DNA from: Anaerolinea sp.
GTDB lineage: Bacteria; Chloroflexota; Anaerolineae; Anaerolineales; Anaerolineaceae
Direction of reading: 5' to 3'
NCBI GenBank assembly: GCA_020216845.1
Contig: JAIWNK010000125.1
Location: forward strand, 1-10,000
Length of the DNA stretch: 10,000 nucleotides
The position numbers and the translations under genes were made by a program. Shown in pieces: positions 1,484-9,878 of the stretch; the first letter of the stretch is position 1; each line of letters opens with the position of its first letter. Under the pieces are notes generated by a model. The model was not told the origin of the DNA and did not search any database. It worked only from the letters and a program-made list of their open reading frames with translations.

Positions 1484-3646
1484 ATGGCTGAAGGCCCGAT
1501 TCAAAAATTGACAACCGGTGGTCAACAAATGATCAATCTGGTTGTTGAAAAATATAAGTCCTATGGGCATTCCTATTTGGCGGTAAATCACTGGCTGGTG
1601 GGATTGTTGGAACGGTACGGACCAATGGCAGCTGCATTGGTTAGCAACCTGGACCCGGCAGCGACTTTGAAGGCAACACAAGATAAGTTGGGGAAGAATG
1701 AACTTGGCCCGGCATTGACGGCAGAAGAAGTGGCTCAGCTTGCGGCTGAACGTGCTAGTCAGCGGGGAAAATTGCAGGCATCGGAGCGCGACATTGCAGC
1801 GGTGATCTTAACCCGGGCTGGGTATACGGTGAATGAAGGTACAGGGTTTAGTGTGCCGTTCTCTGCACCGGCAATTGGGGGGGAAGCGGTTGTGGGTAGT
1901 AAGAGCGGTTCACCGGATACGCCGACGTTGAATCAGTTTGGGCGAGACCTGACGGAAGCAGCTCGTCAGGGCAAATTGCCGCCTTTGGTGGGGCGGCAGG
2001 AAGAATTGGCGCAGGTGATCGAAACCTTGTGCCGACGCACCAAGCGCAACCCGGTGTTGGTTGGGCCCGCTGGGGTTGGCAAGACGGCTATCGTTGAGGG
2101 GCTGGCGGCCCTGGTGGTGAAAGGCGAGGTGCCCAAACCTTTGCAAGGCGTGCGATTGGTGGCGATTCAGCCTTCCATGCTGGTGGCGGGAGCTCACCTG
2201 AGCGGTGAGTTGGAAAAGCGGATGCAGGCGTTGGTGCGAGAGGCAAGTCAGCCGGGCATTGTGCTGTTCATAGACGAAATTCACAGCATCATTGGCGCGG
2301 GTGGCATGGTTGGCACAACCGATATGGGCAGCATTCTCAAGCCATCCCTGGCGCGCGGAGAGCTGGCCTGTATTGCAGCAACAACGCACGATGAATATCG
2401 TCGTTTTATTGAAAGTGATGGCGCATTGGAGCGGCGTTTTAACCCGGTGCGCGTTCAGGAGCCAACCGCCGAGCAAACATTGGAAATTGTGCGGACGCTG
2501 CGCGATGAAATGGCCAAGAATAATTCGGTTCAGATGTCCGATGATGTTTTGGCCTGGTTGGTGGAATTTGCTGATCAGTACATGCGCAATCGTAACTTTC
2601 CGGACAAGGCAGTGGATTTAATGGAACAGTGCTTTGCACATGCTTTGGCGAAATCGCATACGGAAATTGGGCTAGACGAGGCACGTGAAGTCGCCCAGCG
2701 GATGGTTGGCATGCCGCTGGCACTGGATGAAAGCCTGGCTCAGTTGCAACGGATGCTATCGGAACGAGCGTTGCTTGGCAAAAGCGAAGCGGAGGCGCTC
2801 GCTGATCGGTTGAAGGTGACCATGCGGGGGTTGGATATGCGCTCGGGCCGCCCCAATGCGGTGCTGTTGTTGACATCTGAAGTGCGTGAGCAGGGCGAAG
2901 CTTTGGCAGCAGTGTTGGCTGAGGCGATGTATGGCAATGCTGATCGTGTCATCACGATTGATTTCAGCCGATTTTTGCACCCGGAAGATGTTAATCTATT
3001 AGTTGGTGCGCCGCCTGGCTACGTGGGCTATTCGGATACGTTGCCGCTGCACGGTTTGGCGCAGATACCGTGGTGCGTCTTGCGGTTTGAAAATGTGGAT
3101 GCCTGTCACCCTTATATTCGGCAGGTGTTGGCACAGGCTTTCAAAGATGGCTTGTTGATGGATGGGCGTGGACGCCCAATGTATTTGAGCGATACGATTG
3201 TATTAATGAGTGCCAATATTGAATTGCAGGCAAAGCGTGCGATCGGCTTTTTTGCGGAACCGGAACCCGTTAATGTTCAGGATGTTGAAGCGGCAATGGC
3301 CGAGAGCCTGGGGGCAGATTTGGCCGGGCAGGTGGACTTGCTGCTGTTTGGGCATCAGGAAGCTGGCACGGTTTCGGAAGAGTGGGTGCGTCACAATTTG
3401 CTTGAGCCGCTGTCTAAGCGGTATCGCAAACAAGGTCTGTTGCTGGAATGGGATGAGAGTTTGGTCAATTGGTTGGTCGGGGCGCTTTCGCATGGCTTTG
3501 GTGAATCGGATTGGGAACATTGGGTGGATCGGGCATTTACGCCGCAGGTGATTGACCATCTACCGCAACATGCAACTGAAAAAGTTGCGTTGACGGTCAA
3601 GCTGCAGAATGATGCCCTGGTGTTTGTTCAAAAACTTTCAGAGTGA
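1484..3646 (+). CDS. ClpA/ClpC-like AAA+ protein with catalytically dead second ATPase module
   Basis: 720 aa, about the size of ClpA (and without the ClpB coiled-coil middle domain). Start ATG is preceded by GGAGGA (1475-1480). Residues 8-120 resemble a Clp N domain; 125-148 are a Gly/Ser-rich linker. The first AAA+ module (about 150-410) is intact: Walker A GPAGVGKT (194-201), Walker B LFIDEIH with Asp264/Glu265, sensor-1 region IAATT, and Arg317/Arg318 as likely arginine fingers. Its pore loop reads GAHLSGE, with Leu239 where Tyr is usual. The second module (about 430-700) aligns well but has lost its catalytic residues: Walker A Lys/Thr become Gly471/Glu472, Walker B Asp-Glu becomes Glu536-Asn537, the arginine finger is Gln616, and the sensor-2 GAR is gone. 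Yet GAPPGYVGY (508-516) and IGF (587-589), at the ClpP-docking loop position, remain. The family unfolds or remodels proteins, often feeding ClpP. First gene of a four-gene run. Confidence 0.9.
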   Translation: MAEGPIQKLTTGGQQMINLVVEKYKSYGHSYLAVNHWLVGLLERYGPMAAALVSNLDPAATLKATQDKLGKNELGPALTAEEVAQLAAERASQRGKLQASERDIAAVILTRAGYTVNEGTGFSVPFSAPAIGGEAVVGSKSGSPDTPTLNQFGRDLTEAARQGKLPPLVGRQEELAQVIETLCRRTKRNPVLVGPAGVGKTAIVEGLAALVVKGEVPKPLQGVRLVAIQPSMLVAGAHLSGELEKRMQALVREASQPGIVLFIDEIHSIIGAGGMVGTTDMGSILKPSLARGELACIAATTHDEYRRFIESDGALERRFNPVRVQEPTAEQTLEIVRTLRDEMAKNNSVQMSDDVLAWLVEFADQYMRNRNFPDKAVDLMEQCFAHALAKSHTEIGLDEAREVAQRMVGMPLALDESLAQLQRMLSERALLGKSEAEALADRLKVTMRGLDMRSGRPNAVLLLTSEVREQGEALAAVLAEAMYGNADRVITIDFSRFLHPEDVNLLVGAPPGYVGYSDTLPLHGLAQIPWCVLRFENVDACHPYIRQVLAQAFKDGLLMDGRGRPMYLSDTIVLMSANIELQAKRAIGFFAEPEPVNVQDVEAAMAESLGADLAGQVDLLLFGHQEAGTVSEEWVRHNLLEPLSKRYRKQGLLLEWDESLVNWLVGALSHGFGESDWEHWVDRAFTPQVIDHLPQHATEKVALTVKLQNDALVFVQKLSE

Positions 3647-3657: not shown

Positions 3658-4098
3658 ATGGAATTTCAGAACGAGTTTCAAAAGCAGATGTATGAGAAGC
3701 TAGCTGGAATGATGAAGGAACTGTTTGGCGCTTTCGCCAGCCCGCGTCAGGATTCGCCTGCCTTTGGCATTTCCATGGGGAGTGCATACACGGTTGTTTC
3801 CGTTTTGCCGTGGCGGGAGGATGAGGCGATCTTCACCACGCGTTCCTATGTGGTGACAGGAATTGAAATTGTGCCTGAGCTGATGTATTACCTGTTGCGC
3901 GAGAATGACCGGATGCGCTTTGGCGCATATGGAATTGATAGAGATAATGACATTTTCTTTGAGCACACGATTGTTGCCTCGACGTGTGATTTGGAAGAAC
4001 TGAAAAGCTCGGTTTTGGCGGTCGTCTATACAGCAGATCAGGCAGATGATGAAATCACATCCCGATGGGGCGGGCAACGAGCAGTAGACCGGCATTAA
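3658..4098 (+). CDS. YbjN/CesT-like small protein (type III secretion chaperone-like fold)
   Basis: 146 aa, soluble, acidic towards the C-terminus. Residues 1-25 form an amphipathic helix (FQKQMYEKLAGMMKELF). Residues about 35-133 show the alternating strand/helix pattern of the YbjN/CesT-like fold: a strand pair around TVVSVLPW, LLRENDRMRFGAYGID (79-94), the strand FFEHTIVAS, then the helix DLEELKSSVLAVVYTADQAD ending in Asp/Glu. In this superfamily such proteins act as chaperones, adaptors or regulators that bind partner proteins; none is an enzyme. Its position between a Clp-type unfoldase and a membrane protein fits an adaptor role, but that is inference. It begins just after the clp-like stop and ends nine bases before the next start, in the same frame as the next gene. 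The family call rests on pattern recognition and is moderate. Confidence 0.7.
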   Translation: MEFQNEFQKQMYEKLAGMMKELFGAFASPRQDSPAFGISMGSAYTVVSVLPWREDEAIFTTRSYVVTGIEIVPELMYYLLRENDRMRFGAYGIDRDNDIFFEHTIVASTCDLEELKSSVLAVVYTADQADDEITSRWGGQRAVDRH

Positions 4099-4107
4099 GA
4101 GCAGACT

Positions 4108-6390
4108 GTGTTTGACCTGTATTATTACCCGATTGGTCAGCTGACAGAACCAAGCATTCTGGCGGCTGTTGCACCGCGACGCGCTGACCGAAAACGAGTT
4201 GGCGATATTTTCCTGGCCATGTTGACGCTGGAGGGGAATGCTTCGCTCTCGGCAGCCCAACAGCAGGCCTTGCTTGAAAAAGCCGCTGAGGTGTATTTCT
4301 CTTCGGGCGGTTCGGTGACGGCAGGGTTGCGGGCAGCAGTTGCACCGGTGAATGAGTTTTTGTATGGCCGCAATTTGCGTGGCGCTCGCGAGGGTGCGGT
4401 TTGCACAGCGCTTTGGAATGTGGCGGTACTACATGGCAATACGTTGCTGATCGCTCATGCAGGACATACCCATACGTTCTGTTTGACAGGCACACAGGTG
4501 CAAGACTTTGTGGATGAACAAGGTGGGCGCGGTTTGGGCGTGGCGCGGACGCCATCTTTGCGCTTTTATCAGACAGAAGTGAATGGTGGCGACGTGCTCA
4601 TTTTTTCGGCGCGTCCCCCTGCAAGCTGGAATGCGGCTTTGTTAGCTGGTGCGCCCCAATTGAATCGCGATGCGCTGCGTAGGCGGTTGTTGCATCAGGT
4701 CGGCGATGAGGTGCAGGCCGGGGTGTTCCAATTCCAGGCCGGTGATGGAAAATTGCACCTTCTGCGACCGCGCCCAACCGCGGTGACACCTGTGGCGGTT
4801 GTTGCAGCACCTGCAGCAGCAGAAGAAGAGGCAAGACCGTTGCGTGTAGATGTGCAAAGCTCGGTAGCAAGCGCATCACAACAGAGCACAGATGCACTCC
4901 CTGTTCGTCGTCGCCGGGTGGAGACGACGCAGACACCCGGGCCACTTTATTTGACGGGTGAGCGTTTGGAACAGCCGCCGGGTGAAAATGTCCGTGAAGA
5001 GGGCGAGAAAAGCACTTCGGCAGAACAGCTGCGCAGCAGGCGCCGCAGTGAGCGCCGGGCCGAGCCGGGGCAGCGCAATCGCACCATGCAGCAGGCATTG
5101 GCCCCGGTTTGGAAGCGCCTTCGCAACGCCATGGCAGCATTGCAGCAAAAAATGCCGCGCTCTTTTTTGCACTTGCCCCCCTTGTCATCAAAGGCAATGT
5201 TCGTCCTGGCGCTACTTGTGCCATTGATATTGGTTTCGGTTGGGGCAACGGTTTATGTTCGCAATGGTGAAATGGCGCAACATGAGGTGTTGGTTTACCT
5301 GGCAGAACAAAAAAAAGATCAGGCGCTGCAAGTGACGGGCGTGGCACAACAACGGGCTGCCTGGCAAGATGTGTTGTCTCAACTGGATGAGGCAGAGCGT
5401 TATGGACGCAGTGAAAAAGCTGCCGATTTGCGCAATGTTGCCCAGCAAAAATTGGATGAGCTGGATGCGGTCCGGCGAATCAATTATCAGCCCGCTTTGG
5501 CGGGGGGCTTTGATAGTCGGGTAACCATTACGCAGCTCGTATCATCTTTTTCGGGTGACTTATACGCGCTGGATTCTGTGCAGGGACGGGTATTGCGCCT
5601 AAAGGCTACCAGCACAGGCTATTCGCTGGATCGGCAATTCATTTGTGGGCCAGGACAAATTGGCCCGTTGATTATTGGGCCTTTGGTAGATATTGTGCCT
5701 TTGCCGCGCAAGAATCCGTATAACGCGGAGGTGATGGGTATTGATGCCGGAGGGGCGCTGATCTTCTGCAGTGCTGGCAAAGGGCCAGATGCAATTCCAC
5801 TTACATTGGATCGAAGCTGGGGAAAAATTGCCGCGATTACGCTTTATCAAGACTCCCTGTTCGTTTTGGATCCGGCCAGCAATGTAGTTTGGCGCTTTGA
5901 TGAATTGCAACAAGGGTTCACCAGTCTGCCGCGTTCGCTTGAGGTCAACGTGACCGATATGTTCAATGTGATTGATTTGGCGATGTATTCGGATGACTTG
6001 TTCTTGTTGCATGAGGATGGTCGTATGACCAAGTGCACCTACCGCAGCGATTTTTCGCCGACGATGGAGTGCGAGGATCCCTCTCCATATATGCTGACCG
6101 ATGTGGATGGTTTGAAACAGCCGTTGGATGTGATTGCAGGAACAAGATTCATTCAGGCGCAGACAACCTACCCGCTTGAGCCCTCGCTGTTTTTGTTGGA
6201 TCAGGCCGGACGGTCGCTCTATCGGTTTAGTATGGCGTTGCAAATGCAATATCAAATCCGTCCAAGCCAATCCGCTTTTGGCTTGAGTCAACCGATGCGC
6301 GACTTGACGGCTTTTTGCATCACGCCGCTGCAAGAGGTGGTGTTGGCATTTGGGGATCAGATTTACGCTGCGCCGTTACCGGTTCCATAG
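4108..6390 (+). CDS. One-pass membrane protein: degenerate PP2C-like cytoplasmic domain plus external beta-propeller-like domain
   Basis: 760 aa, start GTG 4108; the ribosome site is weak (AAGAG, 4097-4101), and the next in-frame ATG lies 36 codons on, inside the first domain. Residues 1-220 resemble a PPM/PP2C phosphatase fold: a GS-T-ALR-like helix (GGSVTAGLRAAVAPVNEFL), AREGAVCTALWNVAVLHGNTLLIAHAGHTHTF in place of the usual aGDSR strand region, then GGDVLIFSARPP in place of GD-LLLcSDG. The metal-binding Asp residues are missing, so catalysis is unlikely. About 222-350 is a low-complexity Ala/Pro then Arg/Glu-rich linker (VRRRRVE, RSRRRSERR). A single hydrophobic span lies at about 363-384, with Arg/Lys before it, so the N-terminus is inside. 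A helical stalk (390-458) leads to a C-terminal domain (465-758) with recurring propeller-like blades: SGDLYALDSVQGRVLRL, DSLFVLDPASNVVWRF, DDLFLLHEDGRMTKC, SLFLLDQAGRSLYRF. The architecture suggests sensing outside and protein binding inside. Confidence 0.8.
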   Translation: MFDLYYYPIGQLTEPSILAAVAPRRADRKRVGDIFLAMLTLEGNASLSAAQQQALLEKAAEVYFSSGGSVTAGLRAAVAPVNEFLYGRNLRGAREGAVCTALWNVAVLHGNTLLIAHAGHTHTFCLTGTQVQDFVDEQGGRGLGVARTPSLRFYQTEVNGGDVLIFSARPPASWNAALLAGAPQLNRDALRRRLLHQVGDEVQAGVFQFQAGDGKLHLLRPRPTAVTPVAVVAAPAAAEEEARPLRVDVQSSVASASQQSTDALPVRRRRVETTQTPGPLYLTGERLEQPPGENVREEGEKSTSAEQLRSRRRSERRAEPGQRNRTMQQALAPVWKRLRNAMAALQQKMPRSFLHLPPLSSKAMFVLALLVPLILVSVGATVYVRNGEMAQHEVLVYLAEQKKDQALQVTGVAQQRAAWQDVLSQLDEAERYGRSEKAADLRNVAQQKLDELDAVRRINYQPALAGGFDSRVTITQLVSSFSGDLYALDSVQGRVLRLKATSTGYSLDRQFICGPGQIGPLIIGPLVDIVPLPRKNPYNAEVMGIDAGGALIFCSAGKGPDAIPLTLDRSWGKIAAITLYQDSLFVLDPASNVVWRFDELQQGFTSLPRSLEVNVTDMFNVIDLAMYSDDLFLLHEDGRMTKCTYRSDFSPTMECEDPSPYMLTDVDGLKQPLDVIAGTRFIQAQTTYPLEPSLFLLDQAGRSLYRFSMALQMQYQIRPSQSAFGLSQPMRDLTAFCITPLQEVVLAFGDQIYAAPLPVP

Positions 6391-6394
6391 GAGG
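6389..6394 (+). promoter_or_regulatory. Consensus ribosome binding site of the PLP-enzyme gene
   Basis: AGGAGG begins inside the TAG stop of the preceding gene and lies 4 bases before ATG 6399. A second ATG at 6396 is only one base from the site, too close for normal initiation, so 6399 is preferred. The stop/ribosome-site overlap indicates coupling to the upstream membrane-protein gene. Confidence 0.75.
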
Positions 6395-6398
6395 GATG

Positions 6399-7499
6399 AT
6401 GACAGCGTATGATTGGGTTGAGAAGCCGACCTTGTTGCTTGACGAGAGCCGCGCTCGGGCAAATATTGCTCGCATGGCTGAAAAAGCCCGTCGTTCCGGG
6501 CTTCGTTTTCGCCCGCATTTCAAAACGCATCAATCGGTGGAAATTGGCACATGGTTTCGCGCCGAGGGTGTGCAGCAGATTACGGTTTCATCGGTTGAGA
6601 TGGGGCAATATTTTGCAGCGGCGGGGTGGGATGATATTTTGTTGGCTTTTTCAGTCAATTGGCGGCAGCGTTCTGCGTTGATTGCGTTGGCCCAATCCGT
6701 GCGGCGTTTGGGGCTATTGGTTGAATCGGCAGAGAGCCTGGACTTTGTAGAGCGATTGGGGGTGCCGGTAGATGTTTGGCTGAAGATTGATGTCGGTGCG
6801 CGGCGCACAGGGTTGGATTGGCAAGCTGTTGAGCAAATTGCCGATTTGTTGCATTATCCGTTGCATACGGCTCGTTTGCGTGGTTTGTTGACCCATGCCG
6901 GGCATACCTATGGGGCGGGGGATGGTGAGGCGGTGCGCCGTGTATATGCTCAATCGGTGCAGCGCATGAATGATCTGCGTTGGCAATTGCAGCAGCAAAC
7001 CGGGCAGCAGCTCGAAGTTTCTGTTGGGGATACACCGGGGTGTAGTTTGAGTGAGGATTTGGGGGATGTGGATGAGATTCGCCCGGGGAATTTTGTTTTC
7101 TATGATGCTGAGCAGGCTGCGTTTGGCAGTTGCCCACCGGAATGGATTGCGGTTGCTGTGGCATGCCCGGTAGTGGCCTGTCATCCACGGGATGAAAAAG
7201 TGGTTGTCTATGGGGGAGCGGTGCACCTTTCCAAAGATTTTTGGATAGGGCAGGATGGGCAACGTCAGTATGGGTGGGTGGCGCTGCCAGAAGAGGGGGG
7301 CTGGAGTGCCCCATTGCCAGGGGCGTATGTGCAGGCGCTTTCGCAGGAACATGGGCTTTTGCATGTGCCTGCGCCGTTGCTCAAGCAGATTAAGATCGGC
7401 GATTTGGTTTGTGTGTTGCCGGCGCATTCTTGTTTGACGGCGGCAGCCTTGGGACGTTATGCAACGTTGGATGGGCGCTGGATTGAAATGATGCGCTAA
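6399..7499 (+). CDS. D-serine dehydratase / D-threonine aldolase-type PLP enzyme (alanine racemase-like N-domain)
   Basis: 366 aa, normal family length. The N-terminal fold-type III barrel opens with KPTLLLDESRARANIARM. The PLP-binding lysine is Lys42 in RFRPHFKTHQS, the hallmark of the DSD1/D-threonine aldolase group. VWLKIDVGARRTGL (126-139) and LRGLLTHAGHTYG (160-172) are the conserved strands and loops lining the cofactor. The C-terminal D-ser_dehydrat-type domain has GGAVHLSKD and ends with PAHSCLTA, whose His343 and Cys345 correspond to the Zn ligands known in vertebrate D-serine dehydratase. Known family reactions are D-serine to pyruvate and ammonia, and D-threonine to glycine and acetaldehyde; which applies here cannot be decided. 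Cytoplasmic. It is the last gene of the run starting at 1484, with ribosome-site overlap to the previous stop, although its metabolic role has no obvious link to the unfoldase genes. ATG 6396 is an alternative start. Confidence 0.92.
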   Translation: MTAYDWVEKPTLLLDESRARANIARMAEKARRSGLRFRPHFKTHQSVEIGTWFRAEGVQQITVSSVEMGQYFAAAGWDDILLAFSVNWRQRSALIALAQSVRRLGLLVESAESLDFVERLGVPVDVWLKIDVGARRTGLDWQAVEQIADLLHYPLHTARLRGLLTHAGHTYGAGDGEAVRRVYAQSVQRMNDLRWQLQQQTGQQLEVSVGDTPGCSLSEDLGDVDEIRPGNFVFYDAEQAAFGSCPPEWIAVAVACPVVACHPRDEKVVVYGGAVHLSKDFWIGQDGQRQYGWVALPEEGGWSAPLPGAYVQALSQEHGLLHVPAPLLKQIKIGDLVCVLPAHSCLTAAALGRYATLDGRWIEMMR

Positions 7500-8695
7500 A
7501 AAATGGAAAGCGGGGCGGGCATGAAGATCAGGAAGAAAACGATGATCATAATGACGCCTAGCAGGCGACGCGGTGGGTCAAGCTTTGTGATGGTGTCGAG
7601 TGGTTCGGCGTAAACGCGTCCCAGAAAGAAAATCAGCGCAGCCATCAGCAGCCAACTGCTAGAAGCCAATACCAGCAAGATCATGACGCCCATGATGTAG
7701 GGGAAAAGTTTGCGCACGCGCTCGCCGAGCAGGGAAGCGATGATGTGACCGCCATCCAGTGTGCCGGCGGGGATGAGATTGATGGCGGTGACCAGCAGAC
7801 CGGTCCAACCGGCCCAGGCAACTGCGTTGAGCGAAACATCCAATCCGCCGAAGGGGAACGGTCGTCCGGTGAAGAAGTAGCGCAGCCAGTAAAGCAGCGG
7901 GGTTGTCTCATAGCTGACTGGTGCAGGAAGGAGCTGCCCAAAGACCAGATATTTCAGCAACAGGTAGAGGATGGAGTTGCCTTCCATGCCTTGTGTGCCA
8001 GGCTGAGTGATCGTTTGCGGCAGGGTGGAGAGCGTTGAGGTAGATAGGCCGTACAGCAACACCGGAATGGCGATGACCAGCCCAGCAATTGGCCCTGCTA
8101 CACCAACATCAAATAAGACGCGGCGGTTTTTGGGGATGGAGCGCATGTTGATGACGGCGCCCAGCGTGCCAAAAGGGCTGATGAAAGGTGGCAAGGGAAT
8201 AAAGTAAGGCAGGGTGACATTGACACCATTGCGCCGGGCGATAAAGTAGTGGGCGAATTCGTGTGCGCCGAGGATGCTTAGCAGGGCCAGGGTATAGGGC
8301 CAGCCCAGGCGGATGATGGCGAGGAGTTGTTGCACAAAGCTGAGTGTGGTGATTTCTTCGCCAAGCGCATAGAGCCCACCGGTCCACCAGACGCAGATGA
8401 GGGCAAGTAAGAAAAAGATCAGGTTGGTGCGCGGGTTGGAAGGTTTGGGTTGTGGCAAGCCAGGGATAAGCAGAATTGCGTGGCGATCTCCATCGGGGCG
8501 AAAGAGGGGGGTAATGTTGTAGGGGCGCAATGCCTCAGCGAGCTGATCGTATTGGATGTGTGATTCGCCCGTCAGATGGCCGCGGTAGCGCACAATGAAA
8601 GGGTCTTTTCCGCTGCCGATGGTAATGTCTTCAATCAGCAGGTAGCGCCGTACCAGGATTTCATATTGACCATAGGTGGGAAGTGGATTTTCCAT
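7496..8695 (-). CDS. Site-2 protease family (M50) intramembrane metalloprotease, EGY-like, no PDZ domain
   Basis: 399 aa. Residues 1-85 are a soluble N-terminal region, followed by hydrophobic spans at about 91-108, 124-148, 196-217, 240-256, 289-308, 330-357 and 377-396. The zinc site HEFAH (145-149, within a membrane span) and the third ligand motif NLIPAGTLDGGH (306-317, Asp314) are both intact. GTLGAVINMRSIPKNRR followed by DVGVAGPIAG (196-205) is typical of the EGY-like S2P branch found in plants, cyanobacteria and other bacteria. Family members cut transmembrane segments of substrate proteins; the substrate here is unknown. Start ATG 8695 has AGGA about nine bases upstream on this strand. 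Its stop overlaps the stop of the convergent PLP-enzyme gene. The preceding hairpin (8734-8771) separates it from the selenocysteine tRNA, so it may be transcribed separately or by read-through; no clear promoter was found in the gap. Confidence 0.95.
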   Translation of the reverse strand: MENPLPTYGQYEILVRRYLLIEDITIGSGKDPFIVRYRGHLTGESHIQYDQLAEALRPYNITPLFRPDGDRHAILLIPGLPQPKPSNPRTNLIFFLLALICVWWTGGLYALGEEITTLSFVQQLLAIIRLGWPYTLALLSILGAHEFAHYFIARRNGVNVTLPYFIPLPPFISPFGTLGAVINMRSIPKNRRVLFDVGVAGPIAGLVIAIPVLLYGLSTSTLSTLPQTITQPGTQGMEGNSILYLLLKYLVFGQLLPAPVSYETTPLLYWLRYFFTGRPFPFGGLDVSLNAVAWAGWTGLLVTAINLIPAGTLDGGHIIASLLGERVRKLFPYIMGVMILLVLASSSWLLMAALIFFLGRVYAEPLDTITKLDPPRRLLGVIMIIVFFLIFMPAPLSIF

Positions 8696-8918: not shown

Positions 8919-9878
8919 CTATTCTGGTTGGTTGCCCATAATTTGTTCGATTTGTTCTAGCAAGTCATCCGTCAGCTTTTCGGCAGCGTTGCTGGCATCC
9001 AGGTTTTCGTCCAATTGTTCCAGCCGGCTTGCGCCAGTAATGACGCTGCTGACCTCTTTGCGGCGCAAGATCCAGGCAATGGCAAGTTGAGCAGTGGTCA
9101 GGTCGAGTTCTTGAGCCAGTGCAGTCAGTTGCCGGATGATGGCGATGCGATCTGGGGTGAGGTTGTCGCGCACCCAGCCCATTTCTTCAAGCGCGGCACG
9201 GCTGTTTGCCGGGATGCCTTCGTTGTATTTGCCGCTGAGAATGCCGGAATAGAGCGGGCTCCACGTAGTGAGGCCCAGACCAAATTCTTTGCAAAGTGGC
9301 CAAAGATCAATTTCGACGCGTTTGCGGTGGAAGAGGTTGTATTGAGGCTGTTCCATGGTTGGCGGGATGAGGTTGTATTGGCGGGCAATGCCAATCGCTT
9401 GGGTTATCTGTGCGGCTTCCCATTCGGAAGTTCCCCAATAGAGGATTTTTCCCTGATGGATCAGGTCGGTCATCGTGAACACGACTTCTTCGACGGGGGT
9501 GTCGGGGTCGTAGCGGTGGCAAAAGTACAGATCAAGATAATCGGTTTGCAGGCGGCGTAGCGAAGCGTGGAGCGATTCGATGACGTGTTTGCGTGACAGG
9601 CCACGTCCATTGGGGCCGGGCATGGTGGGGCCAAAGACTTTGCTGGAAAGCACCAGGGCCTCACGGGGCAGGTCTTGAATGGCTTTGCCCATCACGATTT
9701 CTGCCTGTCCGCCAGCGTAGACATCGGCGTTGTCGAAGAAGTTGATGCCGGCATCATAGGCGGCATGAAGCAGGTCACTTGCAGTGGCTTCATCTAGTTG
9801 GTTGCCAAAAGTGACCCAGGCGCCAAGCGAAATTTCGCTTACTTTGAGACCCGAACGACCCAAACGACGGTAATGCAT
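8919..9878 (-). CDS. Aldo/keto reductase, AKR6 (Kv-beta-like) type
   Basis: 319 aa, full family length. The N-terminus MHYRRLGRSGLKVSEISLG is the usual opening of this barrel family. The catalytic tetrad is present: Asp49 (INFFDNADVY), Tyr54, Lys80 (LVLSSKVFG) and His121 (YFCHRYDPDTP). The NADP(H)-binding C-terminal segment is SVITGASRLEQLDENL (278-293). SRKHVIESLHASLRRLQTDYLDLYFCHR and PLYSGILSGKY are typical of the Kv-beta/YghZ-like branch. It reduces aldehydes or ketones with NADPH in the cytoplasm; the substrate cannot be inferred. Start ATG 9878 has a strong AGGAGG (9893-9888) eight bases upstream. It lies 30 bases downstream of the stop of a partial gene on the same strand, so the two are probably co-transcribed; the tRNA-Sec promoter follows immediately. 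Confidence 0.95.
   Translation of the reverse strand: MHYRRLGRSGLKVSEISLGAWVTFGNQLDEATASDLLHAAYDAGINFFDNADVYAGGQAEIVMGKAIQDLPREALVLSSKVFGPTMPGPNGRGLSRKHVIESLHASLRRLQTDYLDLYFCHRYDPDTPVEEVVFTMTDLIHQGKILYWGTSEWEAAQITQAIGIARQYNLIPPTMEQPQYNLFHRKRVEIDLWPLCKEFGLGLTTWSPLYSGILSGKYNEGIPANSRAALEEMGWVRDNLTPDRIAIIRQLTALAQELDLTTAQLAIAWILRRKEVSSVITGASRLEQLDENLDASNAAEKLTDDLLEQIEQIMGNQPE

Follow-up and report, generated by a model that had tools for sequence, protein, structure and literature searches.

A Clp-type protein family with an ATPase-dead second AAA+ module that keeps its pore loop and GF tripeptide

The window analyzed here, a 10,000-nucleotide stretch of DNA from Anaerolinea sp. (contig JAIWNK010000125.1), carries an open reading frame (ORF) of 720 amino acids at 1484..3646, referred to as P0001, which encodes a Clp-type protein with a dead second AAA+ module. 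The gene and all of its features given below lie on the + strand. A GGAGG stands a few bases 5′ of the ATG, and the ORF is a real gene. Pfam recognized an AAA module and an AAA lid in the N-terminal half and AAA_2 in the C-terminal half, while none of the curated NCBIfam cut-offs was reached (ClpV 388 of 885 bits, ClpB 373 of 1232, ClpA 341 of 993); in PHROGs, one ATP-dependent protease family matched at 388 bits. The chain has a two-ring Clp fold, its predicted model resembling ClpC, and its closest relatives of solved structure are ClpC proteins. The same genome encodes two ordinary ClpC-like proteins besides P0001, which is thus a third, distinct one; when it is aligned to both, the coiled-coil M region of ClpC falls in a gap. 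Three parts were delimited: an N-terminal all-helical domain (residues 1-115; 1484..1828), the first AAA+ module, D1, with its catalytic motifs intact (residues 147-406; 1922..2701), and the second, D2, a putative pseudo-ATPase module (residues 414-720; 2723..3643). The N-terminal domain matched Clp_N at 18.2 bits, below the cut-off of 20.7, but is helical in the model, and a precomputed Clp_N annotation exists for some homologues of P0001.

A homologue search with residues 405-720 of P0001 scored 7,998 candidates, and 604 of these had E <= 0.001. The best 120 of the 604 matches were considered; 118 belong to the same dead-D2 family (P0002-P0119, with P0002 98% identical to P0001), and the remaining two (P0120, P0121), whose D2 P-loop is intact, are ordinary Clps. 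A full-length profile, to which roughly half of the long family members contributed, separated the two groups, with family rows at >= 584 bits (the row at 584 being a fragment) and ordinary Clps at <= 501. Motifs were counted over P0001 and its 118 nearest homologues, with fragments kept and gaps set aside, and the D2 columns of P0001 were set by alignment to the two ordinary ClpC-like proteins of its own genome. As a control, 121 Clp-like ORFs were collected from 190 loci by pattern (D1 P-loop plus PPGY[VI]G), and the 109 with a D2 P-loop were taken as ordinary Clps; because this group was picked by that P-loop, its Walker-A Lys and Thr/Ser hold by definition.

The former D2 Walker A now reads TSEVREQGEALA (residues 464-475; 2873..2908), with Gly471 and Glu472 in the columns of the ClpC Walker-A Lys and Thr; in the predicted model, it forms a short helix (465-469) followed by a second one (471-483), as assigned by DSSP. 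The Lys occurs in 0/119 family rows, so that no homologue with an intact second-ring Walker A was found among the 118 examined. The former Walker B is now LRFENVDACHP (residues 533-543; 3080..3112), where Glu536 and Asn537 occupy the Asp and Glu columns; the catalytic Glu is found in 0/118 rows and the Asp in 7/118, whereas the ordinary Clps have Asp536 and Glu537 in 109/109. Gln616 (3329..3331) stands in the arginine-finger column, where the family has Gln in 94/115 rows and Arg in 3/115, compared with Arg in all 108 control proteins with a residue there. Several of the replacement residues are conserved as well (Glu536 98/118, Asn537 93/118, Gly610 112/116, Trp677 105/115), and the D2 site has thus been rebuilt and not merely lost. 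Trp677 belongs to a conserved stretch, DWEHWVD (residues 676-682; 3509..3529), located where ClpC has PLRR after GAR, in which Glu678 (108/115) and Asp682 (105/115) are also kept. At sensor 2, the GARPL of ClpC is replaced by GESDW in P0001, and Ser675 (3506..3508) takes the place of the Arg; the column holds Arg in 69/115 family rows, Ser in 17 and His in 13, and loss of the sensor-2 Arg is a property of part of the family only. The dead-D2 argument is carried by the Walker losses and is unaffected by this partial retention. The sensor-1 column still has its Asn (Asn578) in P0001, which is found in 9/117 rows.

The loops of D2 have had a different fate. The pore-1 loop GAPPGYVGY (residues 508-516; 3005..3031) is present, and Gly508, Pro511, Tyr513 and Gly515 are each found in 119/119 rows. 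The tripeptide IGF (residues 587-589; 3242..3250) lies in the column of the [LIV]GF ClpP-docking loop of ClpC, which in ordinary Clps reads LGF, IGF or VGF. Across the family, Gly588 is kept in 116/117 rows, Phe589 in 112/117 and the pattern [LIVMF]-G-[FL] in 106/117; in the control, a GF-type tripeptide was found in 70 of the 73 proteins with residues at this place, and the other 36/109, which we read as ClpB-like, have a gap there.

D1 shows the opposite pattern. Its Walker A, GPAGVGKT (residues 194-201; 2063..2086), has Lys200 and Thr201 in all 114 rows with a residue; its Walker B, LFIDEIH (residues 261-267; 2264..2284), has Asp264 and Glu265 in 117/117; and the arginine fingers Arg317-Arg318 (2432..2437) are present in 118/118. 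In the D1 pore-1 loop GAHLSGELEKR (residues 236-246; 2189..2221), Leu239 stands where an ordinary Clp has Tyr or Phe; Tyr is found at this position in 18/117 family rows and any aromatic residue at 238-240 in 28/116, against 106/109 for the pore aromatic in the control. With the D1 aromatic mostly lost and the D2 Walker motifs gone, the ring with the engine is mostly without a hand and the ring with the hand is without an engine. A preliminary description of this gene had read the first module as intact, the second as having lost both Walker motifs, the arginine finger and the sensor-2 Arg, and its GAPPGYVGY and IGF as kept. All of these residue calls are correct for P0001, and only the loss of the sensor-2 Arg is not family-wide.

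All dead-D2 rows fall into a single clade, with 100/100 support and on a long branch, in a D2 tree with 58 rows. Long branches were flagged in this tree, so its inner order is unsure. The sister of the clade is a protein from genome G180 (L132), with support of 99/96, which retains the Walker-A Lys but not the other D2 catalytic motifs. In this sister protein (also seen as L135:7898-10141), Walker A reads GPSDTSKNE, Walker B contains HD, and GYVG and VGF are kept. The ratio of nonsynonymous to synonymous substitution rates (dN/dS) between G021 and G107 was 0.046 for D1 and 0.067 for D2, which indicates purifying selection on D2 in this pair; it is the one close genome pair used, three more distant pairs having been set aside as saturated or nearly so. 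None of the seven family genes translated contains an internal stop. Twelve ORFs of the control scan had no D2 P-loop, namely ten members of the dead-D2 family, the sister L132 and L148. The last, from G583, is an otherwise ordinary ClpC with a D2 Walker A of GPTGVGTT, in which Thr replaces the Lys, and represents either a real change or an assembly error.

The dead-D2 Clp is a conserved protein family present in several phyla. It was found in 7/147 genomes of the taxonomic family of the window, a census that missed a further carrier, G034, whose copy was found in two pieces by another search. A draw of 400 genomes from the phylum gave at least four with a Clp of this type, including the own genome and that of the sister, G180, which is not of the family proper; two candidates were scored per genome, so this count is a lower bound. 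Named hosts among the matches are Armatimonadota (L044), Abditibacteriales, Blastocatellia and Candidatus Eisenbacteria. In a contig scan with an all-Clp pattern, L044 alone among the 80 loci listed was counted to the family (47% identity); the other 79, set apart by identity and not by inspection of the residues of each, have <= 40%. This patchy spread suggests an accessory system. Two further readings were rejected: a mobile element, since all tblastn matches of D2 to plasmids and phages were below 60% identity (26-30% for the 16 listed), and a defence system, for which PADLOC gave weak AAA+ matches only. Where genes of the family carry a name, they are mostly called ‘ClpC’, which is misleading.

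A nested variant was found in the class of G344, where longer relatives have two D1-type modules ahead of a dead D2. With the D2 of one such protein as query, 94 rows (P0242-P0335) were retrieved, of which 83 have >= 850 amino acids; by pattern, two D1-type P-loops are present in 74 of the 83 and one in nine. Candidatus Limnocylindrales is named for 2/94 of the rows. In this doubled-D1 clade, the D2 tyrosine is replaced by Leu in 83/83 long rows and the GF tripeptide is absent in 81/83, and a joint loss of the D2 grip and the docking loop is expected if both serve one task. Seven doubled-D1 proteins nest within the dead-D2 family on the D2 tree, with weak support for their exact position. Around five doubled-D1 loci (L172-L176), a TelA gene lies within the fetched stretch in 5/5 (by Pfam in L172 only) and a gene for a solute-binding/vWA protein in 3/5 (vWA by Pfam in L173 only), while TY-Chap was found near 0/5. 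L143, L144, L146 and L147 are also doubled-D1 loci with a dead D2.

Directly downstream of the Clp gene of the window, starting 11 bases past its stop, lies a gene for a TY-Chap1/YbjN chaperone-like protein of 146 amino acids (3658..4098, + strand; PF22551, 42.6 bits against a cut-off of 27). Fourteen loci were compared, with the five doubled-D1 loci left out: those of the own genome (G000), G036, G024, G087, G021, G107, G022, G034, G344, G226, G611, G632, the sister G180 and the Armatimonadota locus L044. Contig ends truncate the Clp gene in G226 and G632, and the form of the G632 copy is therefore left unassigned. TY-Chap follows Clp in 8/14 (own, G036, G024, G087, G344, G226, G611 and L044), and this link spans classes and one Armatimonadota genome; the gap between the two genes, measured at seven of these loci, is -1 to 29 bases. 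TY-Chap also co-occurs with the Clp at genome level. It is present in 4/7 Clp carriers of the own taxonomic family vs 2/140 others (Fisher p 2.7e-5), with G034, a carrier without TY-Chap, counted among the others; and in 3/4 Clp carriers of the class of G344 vs 1/147 others (Fisher p 2.8e-5), with G632 among the four carriers and the doubled-D1 genomes among the others. Both tests ignore kinship. Furthermore, in 14/118 Clp clusters, the longest contig has exactly the same size as that of a TY-Chap cluster, compared with 0.54 on average and at most 3 when the lengths were shifted; 118 TY-Chap clusters from the best 120 of 1,018 matches were used, and in one of the 14 size-matched pairs both clusters bear the name Abditibacteriales.

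A third gene (4108..6390, + strand) follows the Clp and TY-Chap pair in the own genome, G036, G024 and G087 only. Its product is a membrane protein of 760 amino acids with a PP2C/SpoIIE-like domain, a long helical segment that includes a probable transmembrane helix, and a propeller-like C-terminal part. The SpoIIE match (19.1 bits) is below the cut-off of 25, and the PP2C and beta-propeller matches, which rest on a low-confidence model with a predicted local distance difference test (pLDDT) of 53 and a predicted template modelling score of 0.33, are leads. The metal-binding Asp residues of PP2C lie in DG and GD motifs; neither was seen at the expected places of the PP2C-like domain, by eye and without a residue-level PP2C alignment. 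The product is perhaps a pseudophosphatase receptor. Its propeller-like part matches the PknD sensor domain in the same low-confidence model. Upstream of Clp, a PAS-GAF histidine kinase is encoded at 1-1374; on the other side, an alanine-racemase/D-serine-dehydratase-type enzyme (6315-7499), an M50 metallopeptidase (7496-8695) and an aldo/keto reductase (8919-9878) are ordinary neighbours. The Clp relative of G034 (L039) lies near PP2C, FHA/zinc-ribbon, vWA and Ser/Thr kinase genes, of which vWA and FHA were assigned by Pfam and the PP2C and kinase neighbours by eye.

Taken together, the lost Walker motifs and arginine finger, the retained loops, the single clade and the purifying selection make it well supported, as far as sequence comparison goes, that D2 lost its ATPase chemistry long ago and under selection and now forms a pseudo-ATPase ring. 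The preliminary description had proposed a purposeful pseudo-ATPase ring acting by passive gating or docking, a proposal that is supported in part. Both of the findings that it named as refuting, homologues with intact second-ring Walker motifs and an IGF loop that is not conserved, were contradicted by the counts over the 118 homologues. An old and selected loss agrees with the first part, with the sensor-2 Arg missing in part of the family only; the gating part fits less well, as a Tyr513 that is invariant in the rows examined, together with the frequent loss of the D1 aromatic, suggests that D2 grips the chain and is more than a gate.

We have proposed a plausible model, which we hold tentatively as the best explanation: a Clp powered by D1, in which the dead D2 would hold the substrate and bind a docked partner, most likely ClpP, while TY-Chap would serve as its adaptor. 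Besides the D2 motif counts, the clade and the selection on D2, we see support for it in the ClpC-like fold of the predicted model, with a helix in place of the D2 P-loop, in the joint loss of D2 tyrosine and GF in the doubled-D1 clade, and in the linkage to TY-Chap. The protein would be a two-ring Clp unfoldase, assumed to be a hexamer, of ClpC-like descent, in which ATP would be bound and hydrolyzed in D1 only. D1 would hydrolyze ATP, move as a staircase and carry D2 with it through the covalent D1-D2 link, while D2 would keep its fold and hold or ratchet the chain with its tyrosines. The [LI]GF loop may dock ClpP or a similar partner below D2, and TY-Chap/YbjN may bring clients to the N-domain. 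That the protein is a hexamer, that D1 is active and passes its force on to D2, that ClpP docks and that TY-Chap is an adaptor is what we infer from sequence. A more far-reaching form of this model is doubtful: hand and engine would be split between stacked rings so that force crosses the ring-ring interface, TY-Chap would be a dedicated adaptor, and the doubled-D1 lineage would be a three-ring remodeller. To our knowledge, no Clp unfoldase is known in which force crosses the ring-ring interface.

Several points weigh against the D1-powered, partner-docking model. No clear ClpP was found in G000, G036 and G087; of the four genomes that carry the three-gene operon, this leaves G024, which gave a partial match. 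The three genomes are 76-86% complete. ClpP (E <= 1e-15) was detected in 127/147 genomes of the taxonomic family and in 62/64 near-complete ones, and it was missed in 18/83 outside the near-complete set; at that rate, three or more misses in four have a probability of about 0.034. The absence is weak but real evidence. The GF tripeptide could be a structural leftover. TY-Chap does not adjoin Clp in 6/14 loci and occurs in G006 and G075 without a detected copy of the dead-D2 Clp. The sensor-2 column is still Arg in the 69 rows mentioned above, within a new context, RDWER, and the 18 rows that keep Tyr239 mean that the loss of the D1 aromatic is not clean. For E. coli ClpA, D2 has been described as the main ATPase motor, with D1 in an auxiliary role (PMC9663308), so a machine driven by D1 only should pull weakly. 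No experiment on the dead-D2 family was found in the literature searched.

The missing ClpP fits a non-proteolytic remodeller, in which D1 would drive release, refolding or disaggregation of TY-Chap clients, e.g., parts of the downstream membrane protein, and the GF loop would act inside D2 or bind a protein other than ClpP. The signalling neighbours, namely the upstream histidine kinase and the kinase, PP2C, FHA and vWA genes of G034, and the PP2C-like membrane protein in the operon are in its favour as well. However, [LIVMF]G[FL] is kept in 106/117 rows while 36/109 ordinary Clps have a gap there, and a clear ClpP is present in the other hosts G021, G022, G034, G107, G344, G226 and G611. We regard this alternative as possible but rather unlikely, and ClpP docking as plausible across the family, though with more reserve for the three-gene operon. 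A search for the ClpX zinc finger gave matches in 0/7 genomes of the taxonomic family (G000, G021, G022, G024, G034, G036 and G087) and in 10/14 control genomes; an ORF at L004 considered as ClpX-like was rejected, as it does not resemble ClpX on inspection.

It is improbable that the protein is a regulatory subunit that forms mixed rings with the ordinary ClpC-like proteins of its own genome, where it would act as a brake or in targeting. The two ordinary ClpC-like genes would supply the partners, and since D1 is conserved down to its arginine fingers, its interfaces could mix. Against this, the ClpC M region is missing and D2 carries the new conserved stretch (DWERWVD), which makes mixed D2 rings look unlikely, and the doubling of D1 in the nested clade suggests a machine of its own. 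Slightly less probable still is a passive spacer or exit gate, with D2 kept for ring stability and its loops conserved for packing. The loss of the D2 Walker A and B chemistry would suit such a role, and Pex1/Pex6 are a precedent for an ATPase-dead ring that serves in assembly (PMC9265785); but in the predicted model, pLDDT falls to 66 in the block of the D2 pore loop and to 57 in that of the GF tripeptide (581-590), unlike tight packing. A decaying gene or a sequence error was rejected as hardly credible, as 118 homologue clusters share the Walker losses, D2 has a dN/dS of 0.067, seven genes are free of stops, and nothing in favour of it was found.

The family represents a natural deletion of the D2 Walker motifs with the grip and docking loops kept, maintained in several phyla. 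It could be instructive for asking whether a neighbouring ring can drive pore loops, whether holding ClpP needs nucleotide in D2, and what TY-Chap/YbjN does for a Clp machine. The loss in D2 alone would interest mainly specialists; together with the reverse loss in D1, the linked chaperone and the doubled-D1 form, it offers a test case for the division of labour between stacked AAA+ rings.

In the open-licence literature searched, with subscription papers outside its scope, we found no account of a Clp whose D2 is dead. Plant SMAX1-type Clp relatives may be similar to the family; the literature search for such a likeness gave no paper. ClpC from Bacillus and Staphylococcus and ClpC1 from Mycobacterium are the best sequence and fold match of P0001, with a weak match in the N-domain, and have D1, D2, the GYVG loop and the [LIV]GF loop in the same order; P0001 differs from them in having no D2 Walker A/B or arginine finger, no M region and a D1 pore-1 aromatic that is mostly lost in its family. 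Like P0001, ClpA has no M region. E. coli ClpA, as part of ClpAP, also has two rings and carries an IGL docking loop (PMC9663308), whereas the D2 of P0001 is without Walker motifs. The downstream neighbour of P0001 belongs to the TY-Chap1 family, for which the ClpA adaptor ClpS is a working parallel as a small adaptor; presumably, TY-Chap belongs to a different fold family from ClpS. TY-Chap1 has been presented as a predicted peptide-binding chaperone family, described with ADP-ribose-centred systems, in a paper whose main text contains neither ‘Clp’ nor ‘AAA+’ (Viruses 2022, PMC9503650). A parallel for a dead ring is Pex1/Pex6, likewise a two-ring AAA+ unfoldase with one ATPase-dead ring; there, D1 is dead and without traditional aromatic pore loops, D2 works, and the dead D1 keeps its Walker-A Lys and probably still binds nucleotide (PMC9265785). 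In P0001, by contrast, the dead ring is D2, its Walker-A Lys has gone and its aromatic loop is kept, while D1 has the catalytic motifs and, in most of the family, no aromatic residue in its pore loop.

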